A DNA stretch of 64,000 nt from an alpha proteobacterium AAP38 (GTDB lineage Bacteria > Pseudomonadota > Alphaproteobacteria > Azospirillales > Azospirillaceae): assembly GCA_001296005.1 (NCBI GenBank), contig LJHR01000026.1:62001-126000 (forward strand), given 5' to 3'. Numbering within the stretch: the first letter of the stretch is position 1; the number at the start of each line of letters is the position of its first letter. Position numbers and translations under genes: made by a program. Shown here in pieces: positions 20,826 through 30,710 of this stretch. The notes under the pieces are model-generated. The model did not search any database and was not told where the DNA came from. It was given only the letters and a program-made list of their open reading frames with translations.

Positions 20826-22868
20826 TCAGCCCTCAATGGGGGCCAACGCCACCCGGCTGGCGGGCAGGCGCACGGTAACGGTGGTGCCGACCGCCGGGGT
20901 GCTTTGCATGGTCAGCGAACCGCCATGCGCCTCGGCATAGCCGCGGGCCAGCGGCAGGCCCAGCCCGGCCCCCGGCTGGCGCCGGTTATGCCCGCCTTCC
21001 ACCTGGGAGAAGGGTTCCAGGGCGATACGCATGGCATCCACATTCATGCCGATGCCATGATCGGCAACCTCGATCAGCACATCGCCCGTGGGCCCATCCA
21101 ACCGTACAATGACGGCAACGGGCTGGCCGGCTTCGGAGAATCGGACGGCGTTACCCAGCAGATTGACCACGATCTGCTTCAGCCGCACCTCGTCGGCCAG
21201 CACGCGCAGCCCCTGCGGTGACACATCCAGCTTGACCGGCACGCCCCGTTCCGCCGCCTTCTGCCGTAGCAGGCGCTCGCACCGGTCGATCAACGGGGCA
21301 ATATCGACCCAGCCTTCACGCAATTCCAATGTCCCTGCATCCATGCGCGCAATATCCAGTAGGTCATTGACCAGCCGCAGCAGATGCAGCCCGCCCTCAT
21401 GGATATCGACTGCATATTCCTTGTATTGCGGCACGCCCAGGCTACCCAGCAGCTCATCCCGCAATATTTCCGAAAAGCCGATGATGGCGTTCAGCGGGGT
21501 GCGCAGCTCATGGCTGATATTGGCCAGGAACTGGCCCTTGGCGCGGTCGGCCACGGCGGCCCGCGTCTCCGCCGCACGCAAGGTTTCACGCCGCGCCAGT
21601 TCGGGCCGCCGGTCGCGGGCCACCAGCGTCATCTCGCCCAGCGGCTCCCCCGTTACGGGTAGCACCGCCAGTTCGATGGGCACGATGGTCCCATCCGCCG
21701 CCTGGATCCGCAGCGTCGCCCATTCGATCCCGCCCCTTCCCCGCATCTGCATCACGCGGTGAAAGATCAGACGGTCGGCATCCACGACCAGATCAAGGTA
21801 GGGGCGCCCCACCACCCGTCCGGCATCAGCCGGCGATATACCCAGCATCGACAGGCCCGCCGCATTGATCAGCGATACGCGACCGTCGGCCAGCAGGCAG
21901 ACCATATCCGGCAAGGCATCGATCAGGGCGCGATACCGCTCGGATAATTGCCGCAGGGCATCGTTCATTTCGGCTTCCCGCCGGGCCGCCCGCTGCACCC
22001 GGGTCAGGACCTGGGCCGTCAGCGCGAACAGGGCCAGCAGCACACCCCCCAGGACCCAATAGACACTGGACAGGAAATCCAGGGCCGGGCGCGGGACACG
22101 CCATGTCAGCCAACCTGCCGGCGGACTGTCAGGTGCGGCACCAAATTCCACCAGGGGCAGCAACCCGACATCAAGCGGCAATTGCCGGGTGGAAATGTCG
22201 ACATTCTCCAGCAGCAAGGGGTCCAGCAGGCGGGCCACGGCCACGCGATCCAGCCTTTGCAGGAACGCCAGGGACATGCCATCCGGTCGGGCAGCACCCC
22301 CCTGGCTGAGCCGGATATCGGCCACGGAGGCCAGAAAAAGCTGGTCACCCCAACGCACCACCCCCGCAACAGCTTCGGTTGTGCCGGGCAGGGCGGCAAT
22401 GGATTTCTCCATCATACGGCCCAGGGCCGGCGGCGGCTGGATTTCGCGCATCCGGTTGTCGGTCAGGCGTTTGCCATCCTCCATCCCATAGATGACGCGG
22501 CCCTGCCGATCGATCACCAGACTCATCGACAGGCGATAGCCGCCGCTGAGATAGATGCCGATATTCTCGTCCGCCCAGGGCAGGTCAAACCGATCCACAA
22601 CGTGCGTGACGGCAGCATCCCAGCCCGCGTAATCGCGCATGACAACGGCCAGGGAATTTTCCGCACCCGCCATCAGACGGGCGACGCGCTGCTCAGAGCG
22701 CTGTGCCTCGCCGGCATCAAAATGCCGTGCCGTGGTGAACAGAATGGCCGCCACCGCCAGTACCGCGAAGGCCAGCAGCAGCAGTACGGGCACCGTTGCC
22801 AATGGCAAAGGATGCCGGCCCGCGCCGGCGGGCTGTATCAGGTCTGGGGCTGGTTGCGGGTCGTGCAT
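20826..22868 (-). CDS. CHASE4-PAS sensor histidine kinase
   Basis: 680 residues. TM1 ~25-45; a periplasmic CHASE4-type domain with the hallmark RDYAGWDAAV near residue 77; TM2 ~268-290; a PAS domain ~305-425 (ALIDALPDMVCLLADGRVSL); HisKA with FLANISHELRTPLNAIIGF, phospho-acceptor His453; and HATPase_c with the VVNLLGNAVRFSEAG N-box, IEVADHGIGM and GAGLGLPLARGYAEAHGG. It should autophosphorylate in response to an extracytoplasmic signal. No response regulator gene is adjacent, so its partner is encoded elsewhere. A Pho-box-like direct repeat lies on its strand ~120 bp upstream of the start codon. Confidence 0.92.
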   Translation of the reverse strand: MHDPQPAPDLIQPAGAGRHPLPLATVPVLLLLAFAVLAVAAILFTTARHFDAGEAQRSEQRVARLMAGAENSLAVVMRDYAGWDAAVTHVVDRFDLPWADENIGIYLSGGYRLSMSLVIDRQGRVIYGMEDGKRLTDNRMREIQPPPALGRMMEKSIAALPGTTEAVAGVVRWGDQLFLASVADIRLSQGGAARPDGMSLAFLQRLDRVAVARLLDPLLLENVDISTRQLPLDVGLLPLVEFGAAPDSPPAGWLTWRVPRPALDFLSSVYWVLGGVLLALFALTAQVLTRVQRAARREAEMNDALRQLSERYRALIDALPDMVCLLADGRVSLINAAGLSMLGISPADAGRVVGRPYLDLVVDADRLIFHRVMQMRGRGGIEWATLRIQAADGTIVPIELAVLPVTGEPLGEMTLVARDRRPELARRETLRAAETRAAVADRAKGQFLANISHELRTPLNAIIGFSEILRDELLGSLGVPQYKEYAVDIHEGGLHLLRLVNDLLDIARMDAGTLELREGWVDIAPLIDRCERLLRQKAAERGVPVKLDVSPQGLRVLADEVRLKQIVVNLLGNAVRFSEAGQPVAVIVRLDGPTGDVLIEVADHGIGMNVDAMRIALEPFSQVEGGHNRRQPGAGLGLPLARGYAEAHGGSLTMQSTPAVGTTVTVRLPASRVALAPIEG

Positions 22869-22988
22869 CGCGTAGGCGGTGGCGCTCCGTCGGATTGGGC
22901 ACCCATCCTCTACCCGAATGGGGTAGGTTGCAACCTTGTTCGCGCAGGGCCATCTCTGCGTCCGGTCGGCATCGGCACAAAAGTTTCA

Positions 22989-23006
22989 TGACAATATCAT
23001 GACAAA
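22989..23006 (-). promoter_or_regulatory. Pho-box-like direct repeat
   Basis: Read on the minus strand: TTGTCAT-GATA-TTGTCAT, two identical heptamers 11 bp apart. The PhoB consensus is two CTGTCAT-like heptamers at that spacing, so this matches at 6 of 7 positions in each half. It lies ~120 bp upstream of the sensor kinase start on the kinase's strand, and ~210 bp from the porin. Confidence 0.6.
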
Positions 23007-23059
23007 ATGCAGTGAAACTGACGCTGCGATTGCCGTGCCCATAATGCAACAGGTCTAGC

Positions 23060-23077
23060 TTGTCATAAAGACGTAAT
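23060..23077 (+). promoter_or_regulatory. Weaker Pho-box-like element facing the porin
   Basis: TTGTCAT-AAAG-ACGTAAT on the plus strand. The first heptamer matches the PhoB half-site at 6 of 7 positions, the second at 4 of 7. Its distance of ~135 bp from the porin ATG and its orientation fit activation of the porin. Confidence 0.45.
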
Positions 23078-23212
23078 AAAACCGCATCAAATCGGCAATA
23101 CCCCTCTGTTAGCCCTCCGCCGGGGCCTGAGGCACTGTCGAGACATACCCGGTGATGGGGATCGGCACGCTGACAGGCTTTGTCGCCCGCGAGATCCCAC
23201 CGGAGAACAACA

Positions 23213-24634
23213 ATGAGCCTCAAGTCCACCCTGCTGGTCGGCGCCGCCGTCGCCGTTCTGGCCGCCGGCCCGGCCGTGGCCCAGTCCGCCGCCCCGTCCC
23301 AGACCCAGATCGACGCCCTGGCCGCCCAGATCCAGGCCCTGCAGGGCCAGCTGACCTCACTGAAGGACTCGGTCGCCAAGGAAAACGCCGCGACCAAGAA
23401 GGCGATGGACGCTATGCCGAAGGTGAGCGCCGATGGTGGCCGCATCCGCGTCCAGACCGCCGACAAGGCCTTTGACGCCGCCATCCGCGCCCGCGTGCAC
23501 ATGGATTACGGTTTCGGCAACGGTGGCAAGAACTTCACCGCCGACGGCACCGACGGCTTCGGCATCCGCCGCGCCTTCCTGGGCGTGGCCGGCAAGGTCT
23601 ACACCGACTGGACCTATGAAGTGACCGCCAACTTCGCCGGCAACCGTGGCGGCGGGGCGCAGATCCAGGCCGCGAATATCGGCTATACCGGCATCCCCGG
23701 CTGGACCCTCGTGGCCGGCGTGATGCAGCCGAAATTCACGCTGGATGACAGCACGTCCTCCAACGACATCGCCTTCATGGAACGCGCGCCCATCGGCAAC
23801 ATCGTCGTCGGCATCGGCGGTTCCGACAGCCGCACTGCCATCGGCGTGACCAACAAGGGCACCAGCCACTTCGTGGCCGCCTATGTGACCGGCAATTCCA
23901 CCAACACCACCGGCAGCTTCGACGATCAGGTCAACCTGCTGGGCCGCGCCGCCTATGCCTTCTGGCAGGCCAATGAAGGCTCCGCCGGTATCGGTGTGTC
24001 GGGCGTTCTGCAGACCACCCCGCAGGCGACCGCCCGCCCGGTGGCCGCCGGCACCGCCACCACCAGCATCGGCTTCGGCGACCGTCCGGGTCTGCGCATC
24101 GGTGGCACCGACACGTCCTACCGCCTGACCAACGTCACGGTGAACCAGATCGACAGCGCCTACGCCTATGGCGCCGACCTGGGCGTGAACTTCAAGAGCT
24201 TCTGGGCCGCCGCCGAATATTACAATTTCGGCGCTGAATATGCCGACCGCACCGCCTCGGGCGCCGTGCAGACGCTGGCCGATCCGGAATTCAGCGGTTA
24301 CTACGTGTCCGCTGGTTACATCCTGACGGGTGAGCGCCGTAACTACAATATCGGTGAATGGACCACCGTGAAGCCCTCCTGGCCCGTCGGCCAGAACGGC
24401 ATGGGCGCCTGGGAAATCGCCGCTCGTTACAGTCAGGTCGACCTGATCGACCGCGCCGCCGGCATCAGCACCGGCACGGCCGGCAAGGAAACCAACTGGA
24501 CGCTGGGCCTGAACTGGTACATCAACCCGGCCATCCGCCTGATGCTGAACCATGTCATCAGCAAGACCGAACGCGCCAACGGCCAGGAAGTCGAACTCGA
24601 CCTGACCGCCATGCGCATGCAGTTCCAGTTCTGA
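23213..24634 (+). CDS. Phosphate-selective-type porin (OprP/OprO family)
   Basis: 473 residues. The signal peptide ends at AVAQ-SAA (~residue 24); a coiled-coil segment (QTQIDALAAQIQALQGQLTS) follows, as in OprP-family trimeric porins. The barrel begins with IRARVHMDYGFGN and the family-typical FGIRRAFLGVAGKVYTDWTY, and the protein ends in a C-terminal Phe (RMQFQF). It should form an anion- or phosphate-preferring channel in the outer membrane, although the selectivity Lys/Arg ladder cannot be judged here. The ATG at 23213 follows CGGAGAAC. Pho-box-like elements upstream support phosphate-starvation control. Confidence 0.88.
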   Translation: MSLKSTLLVGAAVAVLAAGPAVAQSAAPSQTQIDALAAQIQALQGQLTSLKDSVAKENAATKKAMDAMPKVSADGGRIRVQTADKAFDAAIRARVHMDYGFGNGGKNFTADGTDGFGIRRAFLGVAGKVYTDWTYEVTANFAGNRGGGAQIQAANIGYTGIPGWTLVAGVMQPKFTLDDSTSSNDIAFMERAPIGNIVVGIGGSDSRTAIGVTNKGTSHFVAAYVTGNSTNTTGSFDDQVNLLGRAAYAFWQANEGSAGIGVSGVLQTTPQATARPVAAGTATTSIGFGDRPGLRIGGTDTSYRLTNVTVNQIDSAYAYGADLGVNFKSFWAAAEYYNFGAEYADRTASGAVQTLADPEFSGYYVSAGYILTGERRNYNIGEWTTVKPSWPVGQNGMGAWEIAARYSQVDLIDRAAGISTGTAGKETNWTLGLNWYINPAIRLMLNHVISKTERANGQEVELDLTAMRMQFQF

Positions 24635-24698
24635 TCCAGGCTCCGGTTCCACCCTGTTCCAGTTGGGGTGGAACCGGCTTCAGGCTCAGGCAGCTACC

Positions 24699-24737
24699 AA
24701 CCCACCGGCTCCCACAAGGGCCGGTGGGTTTCCTTTT
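24699..24737 (+). terminator. Intrinsic terminator of the porin gene
   Basis: An 11-bp stem (AACCCACCGGC / GCCGGTGGGTT) followed by TTCCTTTT. A second hairpin (CCGGTTCCACCC / GGGTGGAACCGG, 24643-24677) sits between it and the stop codon and may add to termination. Confidence 0.85.
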
Positions 24738-25019
24738 GTGCCCAACAATTAATCGCACGCGCATAAATACAGCGCTGGCTAACACAGAAATCAAATTTGT
24801 TTAGAAAGTACTAATAAGGTAATTCGGACACAGAACCTATCCTTAGGTATATTTATGGTTACGATAATATGTTGCCCTAATATCACATGCCCCAAAAGTC
24901 GTGGTTTTTATTTGGAAACCTAACCAGACGGATTATATCAGACATAGTGACGCTCTTATTCTTTGGTCGTACGCATTGCTGAAGGAGTTATTCCTTCCTC
25001 CTGCCACACCGGAGACATA
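24738..25019 (+). promoter_or_regulatory. AT-rich leader and promoter region of the YfiR-TonB receptor-MCP run
   Basis: About 280 bp that are strikingly AT-rich compared with the surrounding genes. The best sigma-70-like pair is TTGGAA (24912-24917), a 16-bp spacer and TATATC (24934-24939). GAAGGA-N5-TCCTTC (about 24981-24997) is a small inverted repeat in the leader. No coding sequence is convincing here; a TTG at 24963 is in frame with the next gene but adds no signal peptide. Confidence 0.45.
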
Positions 25020-25517
25020 ATGCGCGATCTGCGTTCACCGGCACGGCGCGGCCTGATGGCCGGGCTGCTGATGCCAATACTCGTCTATACCGCTCCTGCC
25101 ATGGCAGCGGTCGATGGCCCCACCGCCACGGTCGCCGTTAAGGCCCTGAATTTCATTCAGCCCAAGCCGGCCAAGCCGACGCCCGTTACCATTGTGACGG
25201 CCAGCGGCCAGGCAGCCGCGGGCGATGCCGTCAAATCCGCCCTCGGCGCCGATGTTACGGCTAAGGTGGTTGACAGCGCTGGCGACCTGTCCGGCGCCGT
25301 CGCGATCATCGTGGTCGGTGGCGCGGATGTTTCCGGCAAGGCTGCTGTCGGCCAGCTGGTGATCGGCGATATGGCCTGCATGGAAGCGGGAAAATGCGCA
25401 CTCGCCGTCGAACGGCAAGCCTCGGGCGCCGCCAAATATCATGTCAACACGGCAGCCCTGGCCAAGGCCGGCGTCAGTTTCGACAAGAATTTTCAAATGC
25501 TCGTGACCGCGCACTAA
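25020..25517 (+). CDS. YfiR-like (DUF4154) periplasmic protein
   Basis: 165 residues. The signal peptide (GLMAGLLMPILVYTAPAMAA) is followed by a ~130-residue domain. Its features match the YfiR/DUF4154 family: an early VKALNFIQ-like strand, a central AIIVVGG strand, the G-K-C-A-L-A-V-E strand and the diagnostic C-terminal pattern YHVNTAALAKAGVSFDKNFQ. Family members are periplasmic regulators: YfiR inhibits the diguanylate cyclase YfiN, and others partner with sensor kinases and receptors. Here it precedes a TonB receptor by 32 bp, so I infer a shared signalling role. The assignment is by pattern, and some core residues differ from well-known members. Confidence 0.7.
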   Translation: MRDLRSPARRGLMAGLLMPILVYTAPAMAAVDGPTATVAVKALNFIQPKPAKPTPVTIVTASGQAAAGDAVKSALGADVTAKVVDSAGDLSGAVAIIVVGGADVSGKAAVGQLVIGDMACMEAGKCALAVERQASGAAKYHVNTAALAKAGVSFDKNFQMLVTAH

Positions 25518-25549
25518 GCCGTCGCCAAGACCACCAGGAGTCCTCGTAA

Positions 25550-27541
25550 ATGAAGAAATCTATTCTGCTCGGCGCGACCGCCCTTTTTGCCGTTGGCGCA
25601 CAGGCCCAGACCATCAACTATACCGCCCTTCAGGACGCTTTCGGCCAGCCGGTCACCACCAGCGCCACAGGCAAGCCGCAGGTGGCCTCTGATGCGCCGG
25701 CTGCGTTACGCATCATCACTGCGACCGAGATCAAGGCGAGCGGCCTGGACAACCTTCCCGATGTCTTGAACCGCTATAGCGGCATGGACCTTTTGCGCTG
25801 GGGCAGCGGCAGCGCCGATGTGGCCGTCAGGGGCTACAACCAGGGCAGCTACCCGCGTCTGTTGGTCCTGGTCAATGGACGTCAGGTCTATAATGACCAC
25901 TTCGCCATGGTTGTTTGGAACACCATTCCGGTGCAGCTGCCGGAGATCAAGCAGATCGAGATCGTCAAGGGTCCGGTCGGCGCGATCTATGGCTTCAATG
26001 CCGTTGCCGGCGTGGTCAATATCATCACCGTAAACCCGCTTTATGACGAGACAGGGACGGCGACGGTACGCGGCGGTACGGATGGCAAGCGCGAAGCCAA
26101 CATGGTCAAGACGCTGAAGCTGGGCGACCGCGTCGGCGTAAAGCTGTCTGCCGGTTACAAGGAGCAGGATGAGTTCGACAAGGGTAATCTGACCGCTGTC
26201 GAACGTTCACGCCTGACGGGCCCCGAAGCGAACTATGTCTCCCTGTCGGGTCTGACGCAGGTCAGCGACAACATCCAGTGGGGTGTGGAACTGTCGCGGA
26301 GCTATTCCTTCCAGACCAATTACAACACCACCAACAGCTACCTTGCCATCAAGTATGTCGCCGAGTCCGCGAAGACCGATCTGACCATCGATGCGGGCTC
26401 CGTCGGCTTGGTGAACCTCATGGCCTACCGCAACAAGATGGATTTCAACTATCTTGCTTTCGGCGCCTCTGACGTGACAACGACCGTCGTTCAACTGTCC
26501 GATCTTCTTCAGGTCGGGTCTGACCACACGCTGAAGTTCACGGGTGAATATCGGCGCGCCGAAATGGGCCGCTGGCCGACGCCCGGGGCCACGATCGGGT
26601 ATGATGTCTTCGCGGGCTCCACCATGTGGGACTGGAAAGTCTCCGATACGGTGTCGTTCACCAACGCCGTTCGCCTGGACATGTTCAGCCTTGATTATTC
26701 CGGTGGCCTTTCATCGCCCTGGACGCTGGCTGACTACGACCGCGACATGACCAAGATCAGCTACAATAGCGGCCTGGTCTTCAAGCCCGATGCCGTCAAT
26801 ACCCTGCGCGCCACCTTCGGGATGGCCAATCAGCTGCCCAGCCTGCTGGAGCTGGGGGGATATTACGTCGCCGGTGCCATCCCCACCGTCGGCAACCCGG
26901 GTATCGATCCGTCCCGGATCACCAGCTTCGAGCTGGGCTATGACCGCGCCATTGAGGCCATCAATGGCCGCTTCGGCATCACCGCCTATCGTCAGCACAC
27001 GAAGGACCTGAAGACCTTCACGGGTGGTGTGGCCGACCGGGTCACCATCAACAGGGTTCTGACCCAGACGATGGTGAACGCCGGCAGTTCGTCATCCTGG
27101 GGCCTGGAGGCGGACGTGAATGGCGCCCTGGTCGGTGGCTTGACCTACTCCGCCTCTTACACCTGGACGCAGATTGATGATGATCTGACCGTGAACCGGG
27201 GCGCAAATGCGACCCGCCCGATCAAGTTCGAAGACGCGACGCCCGAGCACAAGCTGCGTGGCGGCCTCGGCTGGTCTAAGGACGGCTTCTCGGCTGACCT
27301 GGGCCTGACCTGGCAGTCTGATCGCTATCTGCTGCGCCCGGGCACGGGCACCCTGACTGGTTTCCAGGTACCGACGAAGGTCGACTCCTTCGTCACCGGC
27401 ACGGCGACCGTCGCCTATACCTTCTCCACAGGGACCGAGCTGCGCGCGACCGCATCCGACTTCCTTCGGTCCAGCACCGCTGCAACGGCGGCGCTGGAGA
27501 CCGAACGCCGCCTCTACGTGTCATTGTCGCAGTCGTTCTAA
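25550..27541 (+). CDS. TonB-dependent outer-membrane receptor linked to YfiR-like and MCP genes
   Basis: 663 residues. The signal peptide ends near residue 20 (GAQAQ). The plug (about 45-155) shows LPDVLNRYSGMDLLRWGSG, VRGYNQGSYPRLLVLVNGRQVY and IEIVKGPVGAIYGFNAVAGVVNII. The barrel fills residues ~165-663 and ends in SQSF with a terminal Phe. No classical TonB box is obvious at the N-terminus. The substrate is unknown. Receptors of this group commonly sit beside a DUF4154 protein and a membrane signalling protein in gammaproteobacteria, and this cluster matches that layout with a chemoreceptor in the signalling slot. Confidence 0.9.
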   Translation: MKKSILLGATALFAVGAQAQTINYTALQDAFGQPVTTSATGKPQVASDAPAALRIITATEIKASGLDNLPDVLNRYSGMDLLRWGSGSADVAVRGYNQGSYPRLLVLVNGRQVYNDHFAMVVWNTIPVQLPEIKQIEIVKGPVGAIYGFNAVAGVVNIITVNPLYDETGTATVRGGTDGKREANMVKTLKLGDRVGVKLSAGYKEQDEFDKGNLTAVERSRLTGPEANYVSLSGLTQVSDNIQWGVELSRSYSFQTNYNTTNSYLAIKYVAESAKTDLTIDAGSVGLVNLMAYRNKMDFNYLAFGASDVTTTVVQLSDLLQVGSDHTLKFTGEYRRAEMGRWPTPGATIGYDVFAGSTMWDWKVSDTVSFTNAVRLDMFSLDYSGGLSSPWTLADYDRDMTKISYNSGLVFKPDAVNTLRATFGMANQLPSLLELGGYYVAGAIPTVGNPGIDPSRITSFELGYDRAIEAINGRFGITAYRQHTKDLKTFTGGVADRVTINRVLTQTMVNAGSSSSWGLEADVNGALVGGLTYSASYTWTQIDDDLTVNRGANATRPIKFEDATPEHKLRGGLGWSKDGFSADLGLTWQSDRYLLRPGTGTLTGFQVPTKVDSFVTGTATVAYTFSTGTELRATASDFLRSSTAATAALETERRLYVSLSQSF

Positions 27542-27548
27542 CAGCTTG

Positions 27549-27588
27549 TCAGGCTGGATTTCCTGGGTCACCGGGAAGTCCAGCCTGA
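27549..27588 (+). repeat. Intercistronic hairpin
   Basis: TCAGGCTGGA pairs perfectly with TCCAGCCTGA, with a further TTTCC/GGGAA extension and a 9-base loop, 8 bp after the receptor stop. There is no U run, so it is more likely an RNA-stabilising or partial attenuator hairpin between the receptor and the MCP gene than a terminator. Confidence 0.55.
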
Positions 27589-27642
27589 GATTGGTTGGCC
27601 GTAAATACGTTCGTATGAACCGATCCAGAAGGAACTGGCTGA

Positions 27643-29343
27643 ATGTTATCTGAGATATTCTCCCGGTTGGACCGGTTGTCACTGCTGGCAAAGCTGATGA
27701 CCGGCCCCGTGGTCGCCGCACTTGCCATGCTGGTGCTGGGCGGCATCTCCATTGTCGAACTTCGTTCTCAGGCGGCGGAAACCCGCGTGCTGGTGGATGA
27801 GAAACTGGCGCGTGCCGCGGAAATGCAGAGTTTGGTCACGGAGCTGAAAGGCAGCCTGGGCTCGGCCTATTTTGCTGTCCTGTCTGTGGCGGGTGGCAAT
27901 CCGGCGGCCGGGGCTATCAAGGAACTTGAGAGCGTTAAGGCCGCTATCGCGAAAGAGGCAAAGCGGCTGGAGTCCATTTCTGCGAACATCGTCGACCCAG
28001 CCTTGAAGGCAGCGGTCAAAAGCTCGGCGACGGAGTTGGAGGGATTTAGCGGCGCCGTCGATGTTGTGTCGACCATGCTTGAGGTCGATCTGGCCACAGC
28101 GGCCGGCGCGGTCCTGCCCTTCAATGAGAAGGTTCAAACCATCGTGCTGGCGCTGGATAAGGCTGCGGCCCAGATCCAGGCCGATGCCCGTGCCAGTGTT
28201 GAGCGCCAAGCTCAAAGTGCTGTGACGGCCTCATGGCTTCTGGTTGTCGGCCTCTTGATTGCCCTGGCAATCGTGTCGCTGCTGGTGTTCTTCATCACCC
28301 GTCTGGTCCGCAATGGGATTGATGGGATCGCACAGGCGATGGGCAGGCTTGCCGCCAACGACCTGACCGTCGATCCTGCGCCGCTGGTCCGAGAAGACGA
28401 GTTGAACAGCCTTGTCGATGGCCTGTTCTCGTTCAAGAACGCTCTGCAGGAGGCCTCACGCCTTTCGGCTGAACGGATCGAGGCGGACAACCGCGCCCGG
28501 CAGGCGCTTCTGGCGCTGGCGGACAGTTTCGAAGCTACGGTGCTGGGTTCCGTCCGCACGGTGGGTGACACGGCGGGTACGGTGTTGAGCGAAGCGGAAC
28601 GTCTGGGCTTGGTGGCAGAGGACGGACGGACCGCCGCCAGCCACGTCTCCCGCGCCGCCGAAAGTTCGGATCAGGGCGTGCAGTCGGTCGCCAGCGCTGC
28701 GGAAGAACTGGCCGTCAGCTTCAACGATGTCGCCCGTCAGGTGGAAGGCGTCACAGGCAGCACGCGCCAGGCCTCTGCGGCGGTTGAACGGTCCGACGGC
28801 CTTGTCCGCAATCTCAGCAGCGAGGCCGAGGGCATCAAGAATGTCGTCGACCTGATCTCCGCCATCGCCAGCCAGACCAATCTGCTGGCGCTGAACGCGA
28901 CCATTGAGGCAGCTCGCGCCGGTGAGGCCGGCAAAGGTTTCGCCGTCGTGGCATCGGAGGTCAAGCAGCTGGCCGGTCAGACCGCGAAGGCAACCGAAGA
29001 GATTGAGCGTCGGATCAGTGCCGTTCGCCACGCCGCCAACGCCGTCGTCGGCGCCCTGACCGAAATCACCGACCGGATCGGCGACGTGTCCAGCGTCAGC
29101 ACGACGGTAGCGGCGGCGGTGGAACAGCAACGGATGGCGACCCAGGAAATCGCACGCTCGGTGCAGTCCGCCTCCACTGCCAGCCGTGAGGCCGCCAGCG
29201 AGGTGCAGTCATTGGCACAGGTGGCCGCCGGCACCGGTGACGCCGCCCGTGGTCTGCGCGAGGCGGCAACAGGGCTGACCAACGGGGCCGCCCGCCTGCG
29301 TCAAGAGGTGGATGGCTTCCTGCAGCGGGTCCGCGCCGGCTGA
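27643..29343 (+). CDS. Methyl-accepting chemotaxis protein
   Basis: 566 residues. TM1 ~20-42, a periplasmic helical domain (~43-195, four-helix-bundle-like, rich in Ala, Glu and Lys), TM2 ~195-218, HAMP (~219-275: [20 protein letters not shown]) and the signalling domain with the invariant hairpin tip [20 protein letters not shown] and [18 protein letters not shown]. It should signal through CheW/CheA to the flagellar motor or another Che system; no che genes are in the window. Lying 101 bp after the receptor gene on the same strand, it may report receptor occupancy through the YfiR-like protein. Confidence 0.93.
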
Positions 29344-29363
29344 TCGGGGGCCAAACGGCCAAC

Positions 29364-29396
29364 AAAAAAGGGCGCTCCCTGTGGAGCGCCCTTTTC
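29364..29396. terminator. Bidirectional intrinsic terminator
   Basis: A 9-bp stem (GGGCGCTCC / GGAGCGCCC) with a 4-base loop, flanked by an A run on the left and TTTT on the right. It serves the convergent MCP and NlpC/P60 genes. Confidence 0.88.
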
Positions 29397-29412
29397 GTTT
29401 CTGTACAGCCGG

Positions 29413-30267
29413 TTAGCCCGGTCGCTTGACGGCATTGATGCCCTTAGCCCCTGCCCGCGCCACCACATCGGCCAGCGGTTCGGCCACTACCGCCATGTGG
29501 AAGGCGTTGGCATGCAGCAGGGTGGTGGCGTCCTTCATGATGCCGACATGGCCGGGGAAGAACACCAGATCGCCCCGGCGATACTCCACGCCCACCCCAT
29601 CGGCGGAGATCAGGGCACCGACCGAAGCCGCCTGCTGATCGCTGTCGCGCGGGCAATCGACCCCGGCGGCCAGCAGGGCCAGTTGCACCAGTCCGGAACA
29701 ATCGATGCCAATGCTGGTGCGTCCGCCCCAGAGATAGGGCGTGCCCACAAACCGTTCCGCCACGGCCACAAAGTCCGATGCATAATCATCCACGGGCGCC
29801 AGATGGCGTGCATGCACCCAGCCACCGCTCTCGACCTGGCACCAGTCACCCTGGTTGCCCGTCACGACGACGCAGGCACCCATCGGCAACAGGTCCAGAA
29901 ATGGCAGCTTCAGGTCAGCCTCGGGCTGCAAAAAGGTCCGAAGGGCCGTAACCTTGTGCGTGGCCTCTGTCAGCCCGGCTTCCAGCGCCTCAACCCGTAG
30001 CCAGCCGACATAGCCATCGGTTTCATTCTGGCCCCAGGCCCAGCCATCATGCTCGTCCAGCACGGTGAAGCCTTCACCCAGCAGCAACTCGGTGGATTGC
30101 CGCGCCTCGAAGGACGGCTTCTCCTTCAGGGCGGTGAAGCCGCTGTTTATCTGGCAGGGCACACCATCGATGAAACGGGCGGCGGTCACACGGCCACGCA
30201 GATAGCTGGCGGCAAGGTCATCCCGGAAGGGATGGATACGGGGGTCGAGCTTTTCTTGGTCGGTCAT
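29413..30267 (-). CDS. NlpC/P60 cell-wall peptidase with SH3-like domains
   Basis: 284 residues. Residues ~25-160 hold two bacterial SH3-like segments (ELLLGEGFTVLDEHDGWAWG and a second ending GDWCQVESGGWVHARHL). The C40 peptidase domain follows: Cys190 in GIDCSGLVQL, His240 in FPGHVGIM, and His252 in LLHANAFH, the expected triad. It should cut gamma-D-Glu-diamino-acid bonds in peptidoglycan peptides, as dipeptidyl-peptidase VI does. No signal peptide is present, so it probably acts in the cytoplasm on recycled muropeptides. Its ATG overlaps the stop of the upstream regulator (ATGA). Confidence 0.9.
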   Translation of the reverse strand: MTDQEKLDPRIHPFRDDLAASYLRGRVTAARFIDGVPCQINSGFTALKEKPSFEARQSTELLLGEGFTVLDEHDGWAWGQNETDGYVGWLRVEALEAGLTEATHKVTALRTFLQPEADLKLPFLDLLPMGACVVVTGNQGDWCQVESGGWVHARHLAPVDDYASDFVAVAERFVGTPYLWGGRTSIGIDCSGLVQLALLAAGVDCPRDSDQQAASVGALISADGVGVEYRRGDLVFFPGHVGIMKDATTLLHANAFHMAVVAEPLADVVARAGAKGINAVKRPG

Positions 30268-30710
30268 GCCGAAGGGGCCAGGGCTTCCGTACGGGCGCCA
30301 TCCACCATCACGGGTGGGACGACACCACTGATATCCAGGGCGGGATCGGCAACGATCCCGCCTTCCTCACCGACCGGGGGCGCCTTTTCCGCATCGATCA
30401 CCATCTGGCCGAATTCAGCCAGGAAGACGGACCCTTTGACAGTCCGCTGGACCAGCACGTTACGGCGATCCTCCTGATCGCGCTTGCGCTTGATGTAGCC
30501 CAGCCGGCCCAGCCGGTCCAGCGCGCGCGTGATAGCGGGCTTTGACACGTTCAGGGTCGCGGCCAGCCCGCGCACCGTGTGCGGCGGCGGCGTCAGAAAC
30601 ACGGTGAGCAACAGCGCCAGCTGCCGTGCGGACAGGTCAGGCCCATCCTTGCGCACGCTGGCGACCAATGCGCGTCGCCACAGTTGCAGCGCCTCTAGGT
30701 TACGTGACAT
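30264..30710 (-). CDS. MarR-like winged-helix regulator
   Basis: 148 residues from the ATG at 30710; an upstream ATG at 30770 would add a Gly/Arg-rich leader that looks artificial. The DNA-binding part is LSARQLALLLTVFLTPPPHTVRGLAATLNVSKPAITRALDRLGRLGYIKRKRDQEDRR (residues ~30-85), with a recognition helix and a basic wing. The C-terminal ~40 residues are Pro/Val-rich and not family-typical. Translation is coupled to the NlpC/P60 gene downstream, so it may regulate that hydrolase or a nearby pathway. The SD is weak. Confidence 0.8.
   Translation of the reverse strand: MSRNLEALQLWRRALVASVRKDGPDLSARQLALLLTVFLTPPPHTVRGLAATLNVSKPAITRALDRLGRLGYIKRKRDQEDRRNVLVQRTVKGSVFLAEFGQMVIDAEKAPPVGEEGGIVADPALDISGVVPPVMVDGARTEALAPSA

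Follow-up and report, generated by a model that had tools for sequence, protein, structure and literature searches.

Two described systems, YfiBNR of Pseudomonas aeruginosa and HmsCDE, place a periplasmic protein of the YfiR fold between one partner in the outer membrane and another in the inner membrane. Maltose-binding protein docks on Tar, and this pair, like XylFII-LytS, represents a further kind of periplasmic step, in which a four-helix sensor receives a binding protein. We know of no outer-membrane receptor that belongs to either of these pairs and, to our knowledge, chemoreceptors sense only compounds that are already past the outer membrane, either directly or via a binding protein. 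Here we describe a run of three genes in a 64,000-nucleotide stretch of the genome of the alphaproteobacterium AAP38 (Azospirillaceae; GenBank assembly GCA_001296005.1, contig LJHR01000026.1, positions 62,001 to 126,000; hereafter the window). The three genes encode a YfiR-like periplasmic protein (P1; 25020-25517), a TonB-dependent receptor (TBDT; 25550-27541) and a methyl-accepting chemotaxis protein (MCP; 27643-29343), all on the + strand.

The arrangement of the trio is that of YfiBNR and HmsCDE, with different partners: in YfiBNR a lipoprotein, YfiB, acts on the outer side and a diguanylate cyclase, YfiN, provides the output, whereas the trio has a TBDT and an MCP. The run contains only P1, TBDT and MCP, no search aimed at YfiB having been made. 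Azospirillaceae loci that combine a TBDT, a DUF4154 protein and a kinase have the same outer-membrane and periplasmic gene kinds in one run, but a kinase takes the place of the MCP and their TBDTs lack an N-terminal box that is described below. With the Tar and XylFII-LytS pairs the trio would share the docking step, although it is only the arrangement that is common, P1 being YfiR-like. A link between a TBDT and a chemotactic response has been reported for the ferric-siderophore receptor XfeA of Xanthomonas oryzae pv. oryzicola; the sections of that report available to us state that MCPs bind the siderophore directly and that editing of the TBDT changes the expression of chemotaxis genes, which rises, and they mention no YfiR-like go-between (PMC8549721). 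Literature searches, in which few subscription journals were covered, returned nothing that combines DUF4154 with a TonB-dependent receptor; DUF4154 itself occurred in one paper, and the one paper that has YfiR together with methyl-accepting chemotaxis and TonB dependence is unrelated, judging by its title and the beginning of its abstract. Among the matches listed there was no description of a wiring from TBDT through a YfiR-like protein to an MCP. The parts (TBDT signalling, YfiR-type relays, binding-protein chemoreceptors) are of known kinds; what appears to be new, going by those matches, is that a single conserved cassette brings them together and has a periplasmic domain of its own on the transducer.

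We conclude from comparison of gene neighbourhoods that P1, a TBDT bearing the box and a transducer bearing a four-helix periplasmic ligand-binding domain (LBD) are a conserved cassette in the Azospirillaceae, the output of which is an MCP or a histidine kinase. We further think it somewhat probable that the trio constitutes one trans-envelope chemosensory pathway running from the TBDT through P1 and the LBD to the Che proteins. In such a pathway the TBDT would bind a surface ligand and alter the state of P1, through its N-terminal box, through release of the imported ligand, or both. P1, which resembles a single lobe of a solute-binding protein, would then dock on the LBD, the folds of both partners being computed models, and the MCP would be expected, as a member of its family, to pass the signal to CheA/CheW and on to flagella or another Che output. 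A more elaborate version, in which TBDT occupancy is read from the box by a YfiR-fold relay seated on an interchangeable LBD port (MCP or kinase on the output side, YfiR-like protein or SBP_bac_5 protein on the input side) and so steers chemotaxis, is put forward tentatively, as a possibility that we ourselves incline to doubt.

If the pathway operates in this way, an outer-membrane receptor would be tied to behaviour and cells could follow gradients of TonB substrates; they could navigate towards ligands whose size keeps them from passing through porins, the receptor being variable while relay and transducer are kept. The cassette also points to a testable partner for a sensor domain of the periplasm that goes unrecognised by Pfam in this MCP, accounts for the presence of one LBD on MCPs and kinases alike, and provides a genome-level route by which orphan chemoreceptors can be paired with outer-membrane receptors.

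Conservation of the cassette in the Azospirillaceae

Relatives of P1 were detectable at the BLAST level in 14 of 82 Azospirillaceae genomes, and a profile of the P1 family (A4) found 42 P1 places in 30 of the 82. A profile of the LBD (A5) picked out 48 places above 90 bits, here called strong, spread over 30 of 81 genomes, as well as nine weak ones. At 35 of the 42 P1 places there is an LBD place no more than 7 kb away, and 32 of the 48 strong LBD places, but none of the nine weak ones, adjoin P1. The seven P1 places with no LBD within that distance are G070:C5, G056:C139, G047:C268, G067:C273, G058:C94, G058:C79 and G050:C87, the first, second and fifth of which are near a contig end. The transducers that carry the 32 P1-adjoining LBDs are 27 MCPs and five histidine kinases, and a TBDT is present at 29 of these 32 loci (in L037 as a fragment at the contig end). 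Three gene orders occur at the 27 MCP loci, P1-TBDT-MCP at 17, TBDT-P1-MCP at eight and MCP-P1-TBDT at two; these loci are not independent, because related species share them by descent. A preliminary description, made from the letters of the window, had named lack of conservation of the trio in related genomes as a ground for giving up its reading; the trio was recovered on one strand at 27 Azospirillaceae loci. A chance neighbourhood is ruled out by this recurrence, by the three gene orders and by the exchange of MCP for kinase as output.

Ordinary DUF4154 genes provided a control. In 81 Azospirillaceae genomes the DUF4154 profile PF13689 gave 35 rows, 14 of them at P1-family places (six of these over the cut-off); the other 21 made up the control. 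A kinase stands beside 20 of the 21 control genes and a TBDT beside 18, whereas none has an MCP in the same run; at one locus (L245) an MCP is close by but encoded on the opposite strand. The suggestion that the MCP occupies a slot otherwise held by a kinase is therefore borne out in this family. The wider reading of the preliminary description, a transenvelope pathway in which the YfiR-like protein relays receptor occupancy to MCP-controlled taxis, is supported in part: P1 may instead pass on imported ligand, and the MCP may drive a Che output other than swimming. The kinase labels used here, and the SBP_bac_5 labels used below, come from small profiles of our own (five and four sequences, respectively), of which Pfam confirmed only part.

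P1 has a YfiR-type fold

P1 (165 amino acids from its ATG) has a signal-peptide-like start followed by the domain of YfiR fold. Taken alone, the protein has no match at E<=1 in either Pfam or NCBIfam, and a PF13689 search of the genome that encodes it misses it even with the limit set at E<=10; its DUF4154 label therefore rests on other members of its family and on its fold. A profile built from P1 and its BLAST relatives only, with no row chosen by PF13689 (A1), found all six bridge members tested, with E values of 1e-13 to 7e-21 (scaled to 10,000 sequences); it also recovered seven outside members at 4e-7 or better. None of seven ordinary DUF4154 controls fell below E 0.1 with the same profile, and four were unlisted even at E<=100. 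PF13689 matches ten of the 18 A4 members at E<=0.1, a count that is partly circular since six of the ten were picked via PF13689. When the P1 family and DUF4154 were compared profile to profile, the match had an E value of 8.6e-5 and a probability of 60% with the bridge members included, and 0.0075 and 5% without them. By sequence, the P1 profile gave no link to the solved YfiR, returning two unrelated matches.

The AlphaFold2 model of P1 has a predicted local distance difference test score (pLDDT) of 78.8, with residues 1-28 poor. Its best VIA-align matches are YfiR chains (Z 13.2, root-mean-square deviation 3.0, 127 aligned residues). The Trp-binding protein 3lft ties with YfiR (Z 12.7) and 8wgl follows at Z 12.0, while Foldseek places Rhodothermus binding proteins first (6e-4) and YfiR next (about 5e-3). 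A likeness of YfiR itself to 3lft is stated in PMC4655355. The P1 model consists of a single lobe, unlike binding proteins with two lobes. We conclude that the fold of P1 is of the YfiR type and that the protein represents a divergent branch of the YfiR/DUF4154 family. The earlier designation of the first protein as DUF4154/YfiR-like thus holds for its family, through the six relatives over the PF13689 cut-off, and for its fold, but not for P1 by itself, which shows no DUF4154 similarity in Pfam. P1 has a pair of cysteines, C120 and C126, that is invariant in the 18 rows of A4; YfiR has a disulfide, Cys145-Cys152, to which this pair might correspond.

The fold bears on two other explanations of the trio. 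In the first, P1 would hold the MCP in one default state and the TBDT would sequester P1 as YfiB does YfiR. The YfiR fold of P1 is in keeping with such a role, and sequestration of YfiR by YfiB is described as relieving the inhibition of YfiN; the output partner differs, however, the MCP presenting a four-helix LBD and YfiN a PAS-type domain. Because both the partner and its domain differ, the sign of P1 action cannot be transferred from YfiR, and we regard this explanation as unlikely. In the second, the TBDT would merely import a ligand that porins exclude, which P1 or the MCP would bind free in the periplasm with no contact between TBDT and P1, giving taxis like that with maltose-binding protein and Tar. 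The near-equal ranking of solute-binding proteins and YfiR on the P1 model favours this second explanation, as do crystals of YfiR with bound L-Trp and vitamin B6, although the dissociation constants given in PMC4887326 are in the tens of mmol/L; that P1 is one lobe tells against it. We consider it quite conceivable, giving it a little less than an even chance, and return to it below where the receptor and the LBD bear on it.

In one further locus (L127:7374-7898, genome G081) P1 is broken by a TAG stop, and the TBDT and MCP genes still follow. Plasmid relatives were sought for one P1-family member (L058) and none were found.

The receptor and its N-terminal box

The second gene (663 amino acids) was identified as a TonB-dependent receptor in the preliminary description, and profile matches to Plug (3.4e-17) and OMP_b-brl_3 (3e-9) support this. 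No NCBIfam cut-off was reached, which ruled out naming the ligand from the receptor family. The pathway proposed here resembles FecA-type signalling in that an outer-membrane TonB-dependent receptor would signal across the envelope. FecA, which acts on an anti-sigma factor, carries a signalling domain at its N terminus, whereas in the trio TBDT no such domain was detected before the plug in a profile search at E<=1, the Plug match beginning at residue 47.

What does precede the plug is a box of approximately (D/N)YGxLExLFGEPVTTSATGKPQ, which lies between signal peptide and plug at residues 21-44 (25610-25681, + strand). It is present in 42 of 44 P1-linked TBDTs and in none of 18 DUF4154-linked TBDTs, counts to be read with the reservation that the pattern was composed after viewing the TBDT alignment and was counted on largely the same sequences. 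The box presumably stands where a TonB box would stand. Because it is restricted to P1-linked TBDTs, however, a second partner is suspected, and the distribution suggests that this partner is most simply P1. A contact of this kind would go beyond import, and the box is thus a point against the explanation in which the TBDT does no more than deliver a free ligand.

Four close relatives of the TBDT were found in genome contigs, three in Niveispirillum records and one in a record named Azospirillum; Niveispirillum lacus is a member of the Azospirillaceae. The receptor appears to vary upon a steadier P1/MCP core: at locus L025 the identity to the window is 62% for the TBDT, 90% for P1 and 92% for the MCP, and the upstream TBDT L027up has an identity of 55%. 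Two loci (L026 and L027) have two P1-TBDT pairs ahead of one MCP, the TBDTs being dissimilar.

The chemoreceptor and its ligand-binding domain

The third gene (566 amino acids) encodes a transmembrane MCP, as had been described: MCPsignal matches at 4.6e-30 with 105.1 bits (cut-off 34.6), hydropathy peaks at residues 22-40 and 200-218 correspond to two predicted membrane segments, and a HAMP match of 23.0 bits falls just below its cut-off of 25. It is one of 42 MCP-domain matches in the window genome (5.78 Mb). The same genome has six CheW-domain matches, which lie on two contigs (C31 and C42), and the output could therefore be swimming or another Che pathway. We regard as distinctly unlikely a pathway that does not control flagella and ends, for example, in a cyclic di-GMP (c-di-GMP) or transcriptional output; it would be in line with the distribution of the CheW-domain genes over two contigs and with the nature of other P1 partners, which are kinases, a cyclase and GGDEF-EAL proteins, but the MCP has a matching signalling domain and nothing ties it to one cluster.

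Between the two membrane segments lies the LBD (residues 41-200; 27763-28242, + strand), which is predicted to form four helices (pLDDT 85.7). Pfam does not recognise it as such in the window, 4HB_MCP_1 scoring 13.0 bits against a cut-off of 27; that of a relative (L123) passes both TarH (37.5) and 4HB_MCP_1 (34.7), and at E<=0.01 three of 23 LBD members match 4HB_MCP_1 and two match TarH. The model aligns with the LBDs of the chemoreceptors Vc1313 (Z 15.6), MCP2201 (14.4), PcaY (14.3) and Tar (12.1), and with LytS-N of XylFII-LytS (Z 13.7). The top match is a designed bundle (6egc, Z 15.7), and the structural matches therefore show the four-helix arrangement only.

A profile made from 23 LBDs of P1-linked MCPs was run against nine sequences, of which it found the two kinases HK_L111 (1.9e-41) and HK_L035 (2e-39) and none of the other seven. 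The kinases that replace the MCP beside P1 bear the same periplasmic LBD. In a tree of 40 LBDs, parsimony gives three changes between MCP and kinase, and the starred branches force at least one; the 40 sequences were chosen by us, branches are long and single placements are unsure.

The LBD also occurs with a second kind of binding protein. The 16 strong Azospirillaceae LBD places away from P1 are all kinases, and at 14 of them, in two genera, an SBP_bac_5 gene of the same orientation lies upstream at a distance of up to about 200 bp (the SBP_bac_5 profile drew rows from two of these 14 loci, L223 and L216); the other two, L214 and L229, have neither P1 nor the upstream gene. At L121 and L123, MCP, P1, TBDT and SBP_bac_5 are all together. 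Because it accompanies P1 here and SBP_bac_5 elsewhere, the LBD looks like a docking port for periplasmic binding proteins. The association with SBP_bac_5 also speaks for the explanation in which P1 or the MCP binds a freely imported ligand.

One such kinase is encoded in the window genome itself (L223:5797-10240, G000:C23), where a GAF histidine kinase with the LBD lies directly 3' of an SBP_bac_5 gene. Two LBD kinase loci have surroundings of the kind seen with ribosomally synthesised and post-translationally modified peptides (RiPPs): L223:9757-12791 has subtilase and LanC-like genes, and L216:3282-11640 has a TP_methylase with a C-terminal repeat tail, which we take to resemble borosin precursors, along with a radical SAM protein. 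A RiPP peptide as ligand of the trio was considered and dropped, as the RiPP genes adjoin these two separate kinases and not the trio.

Occurrence outside the Azospirillaceae and limits of the association

Genomes from the class (385) and from the phylum (398) were sampled, with no more than nine candidates scored per genome, so that the counts are lower bounds. The class sample held at least ten P1 places in eight genomes outside the Azospirillaceae, and the phylum sample P1 in at least six genomes, none of which falls outside that class. Three families besides the Azospirillaceae have the trio with LBD (L128, L131 and L265, the last in genome G743); genome G777 has P1-TBDT without it (L268).

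A number of observations weigh against a single pathway from TBDT through P1 to the LBD. In the class sample the genes are less tightly linked, the LBD trio being found at two of the ten P1 places (L128 and L131). The remainder comprise P1-TBDT with an MCP lacking the LBD (L137), P1 with a hybrid kinase (L134), P1 with a TBDT only (L129), P1 with a TBDT and a divergent kinase (L132), P1 with neither TBDT nor LBD (L133 and L135) and P1-TBDT runs with GGDEF-EAL proteins (L130:2302-7961 and L136:7748-12792), from which it follows that c-di-GMP outputs occur too. Outside the Azospirillaceae, three of nine LBD places above 80 bits are beside P1. Within the family, one locus from the same genus (L124:203-4743, G067) has TBDT-P1 followed by a PAS adenylate/guanylate cyclase and no MCP, and at L116, L117 and L119 P1 neighbours a short LBD kinase encoded on the opposite strand, and no TBDT was found within 16 kb of sequence; these three loci speak for binding of a free ligand in the periplasm. 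The proposal of a docking port is weakened by LBD proteins for which neither partner was found (L231, L232, L233, L266, L267 and L269), and a hairpin in the gap between TBDT and MCP (27549-27588, see below) may separate expression of the MCP.

Gene adjacency is in any case no proof of interaction: in P. aeruginosa, adjacent binding-protein/kinase pairs that were tested did not interact, according to PMC11113362. The three proteins might accordingly respond to the same condition without touching one another. We consider this very improbable, as the shuffled gene orders, the LBD common to MCPs and kinases beside P1, and the box are poorly explained by regulation alone, and we retain the trans-envelope pathway as our working proposal.

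Gene layout and transcription

The three open frames of the window are separated by gaps of 32 bp and 101 bp, as the preliminary description had it. Its account of one terminator at the end was incomplete, as there is an additional perfect hairpin of 18 bp before the MCP (27549-27588, + strand; -36.5 kcal/mol, z -8.3, without a U-run). The terminator-like hairpin 3' of the MCP lies at 29366-29395 (+ strand; fold of 29341-29400, -32.8 kcal/mol, z -4.7), and the gene beyond it is on the opposite strand. The number of terminator-like sites is no evidence in itself, because five were found against 3.6 expected from shuffles. Hairpins in the TBDT-MCP gap were also seen at L024, L025, L026, L027 and L029, with partly different sequences, and L030 has one between P1 and MCP, that is, again before the MCP. 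From these features the trio is probably transcribed as one unit in which an expression step precedes the MCP; because of the hairpin in the gap, it is no more than likely that the MCP shares the transcript.

A search for known RNAs and riboswitches in 22800-30300 gave only three matches, all below gathering scores and all at the terminator. Upstream of P1 there is a porin gene (Porin_O_P), then a terminator-like hairpin at 24699-24730. The mechanical open reading frame of P1 begins at a TTG at 24963, and the relatives L024 and L025 start at the ATG of P1 too. An AT-rich stretch (24880-25019) lies 5' of P1, and its segment around GGAAACCTAACCAGACGGATTATA is kept in L024, L025 and L026; the stretch is a possible promoter or operator. 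At the other end of the cassette, a gene for a 1694-residue protein of ALTTAQ repeats is found 3' of the MCP in L027 (30-5114), and L029 has a gene for a protein of 1689 residues at the same place.

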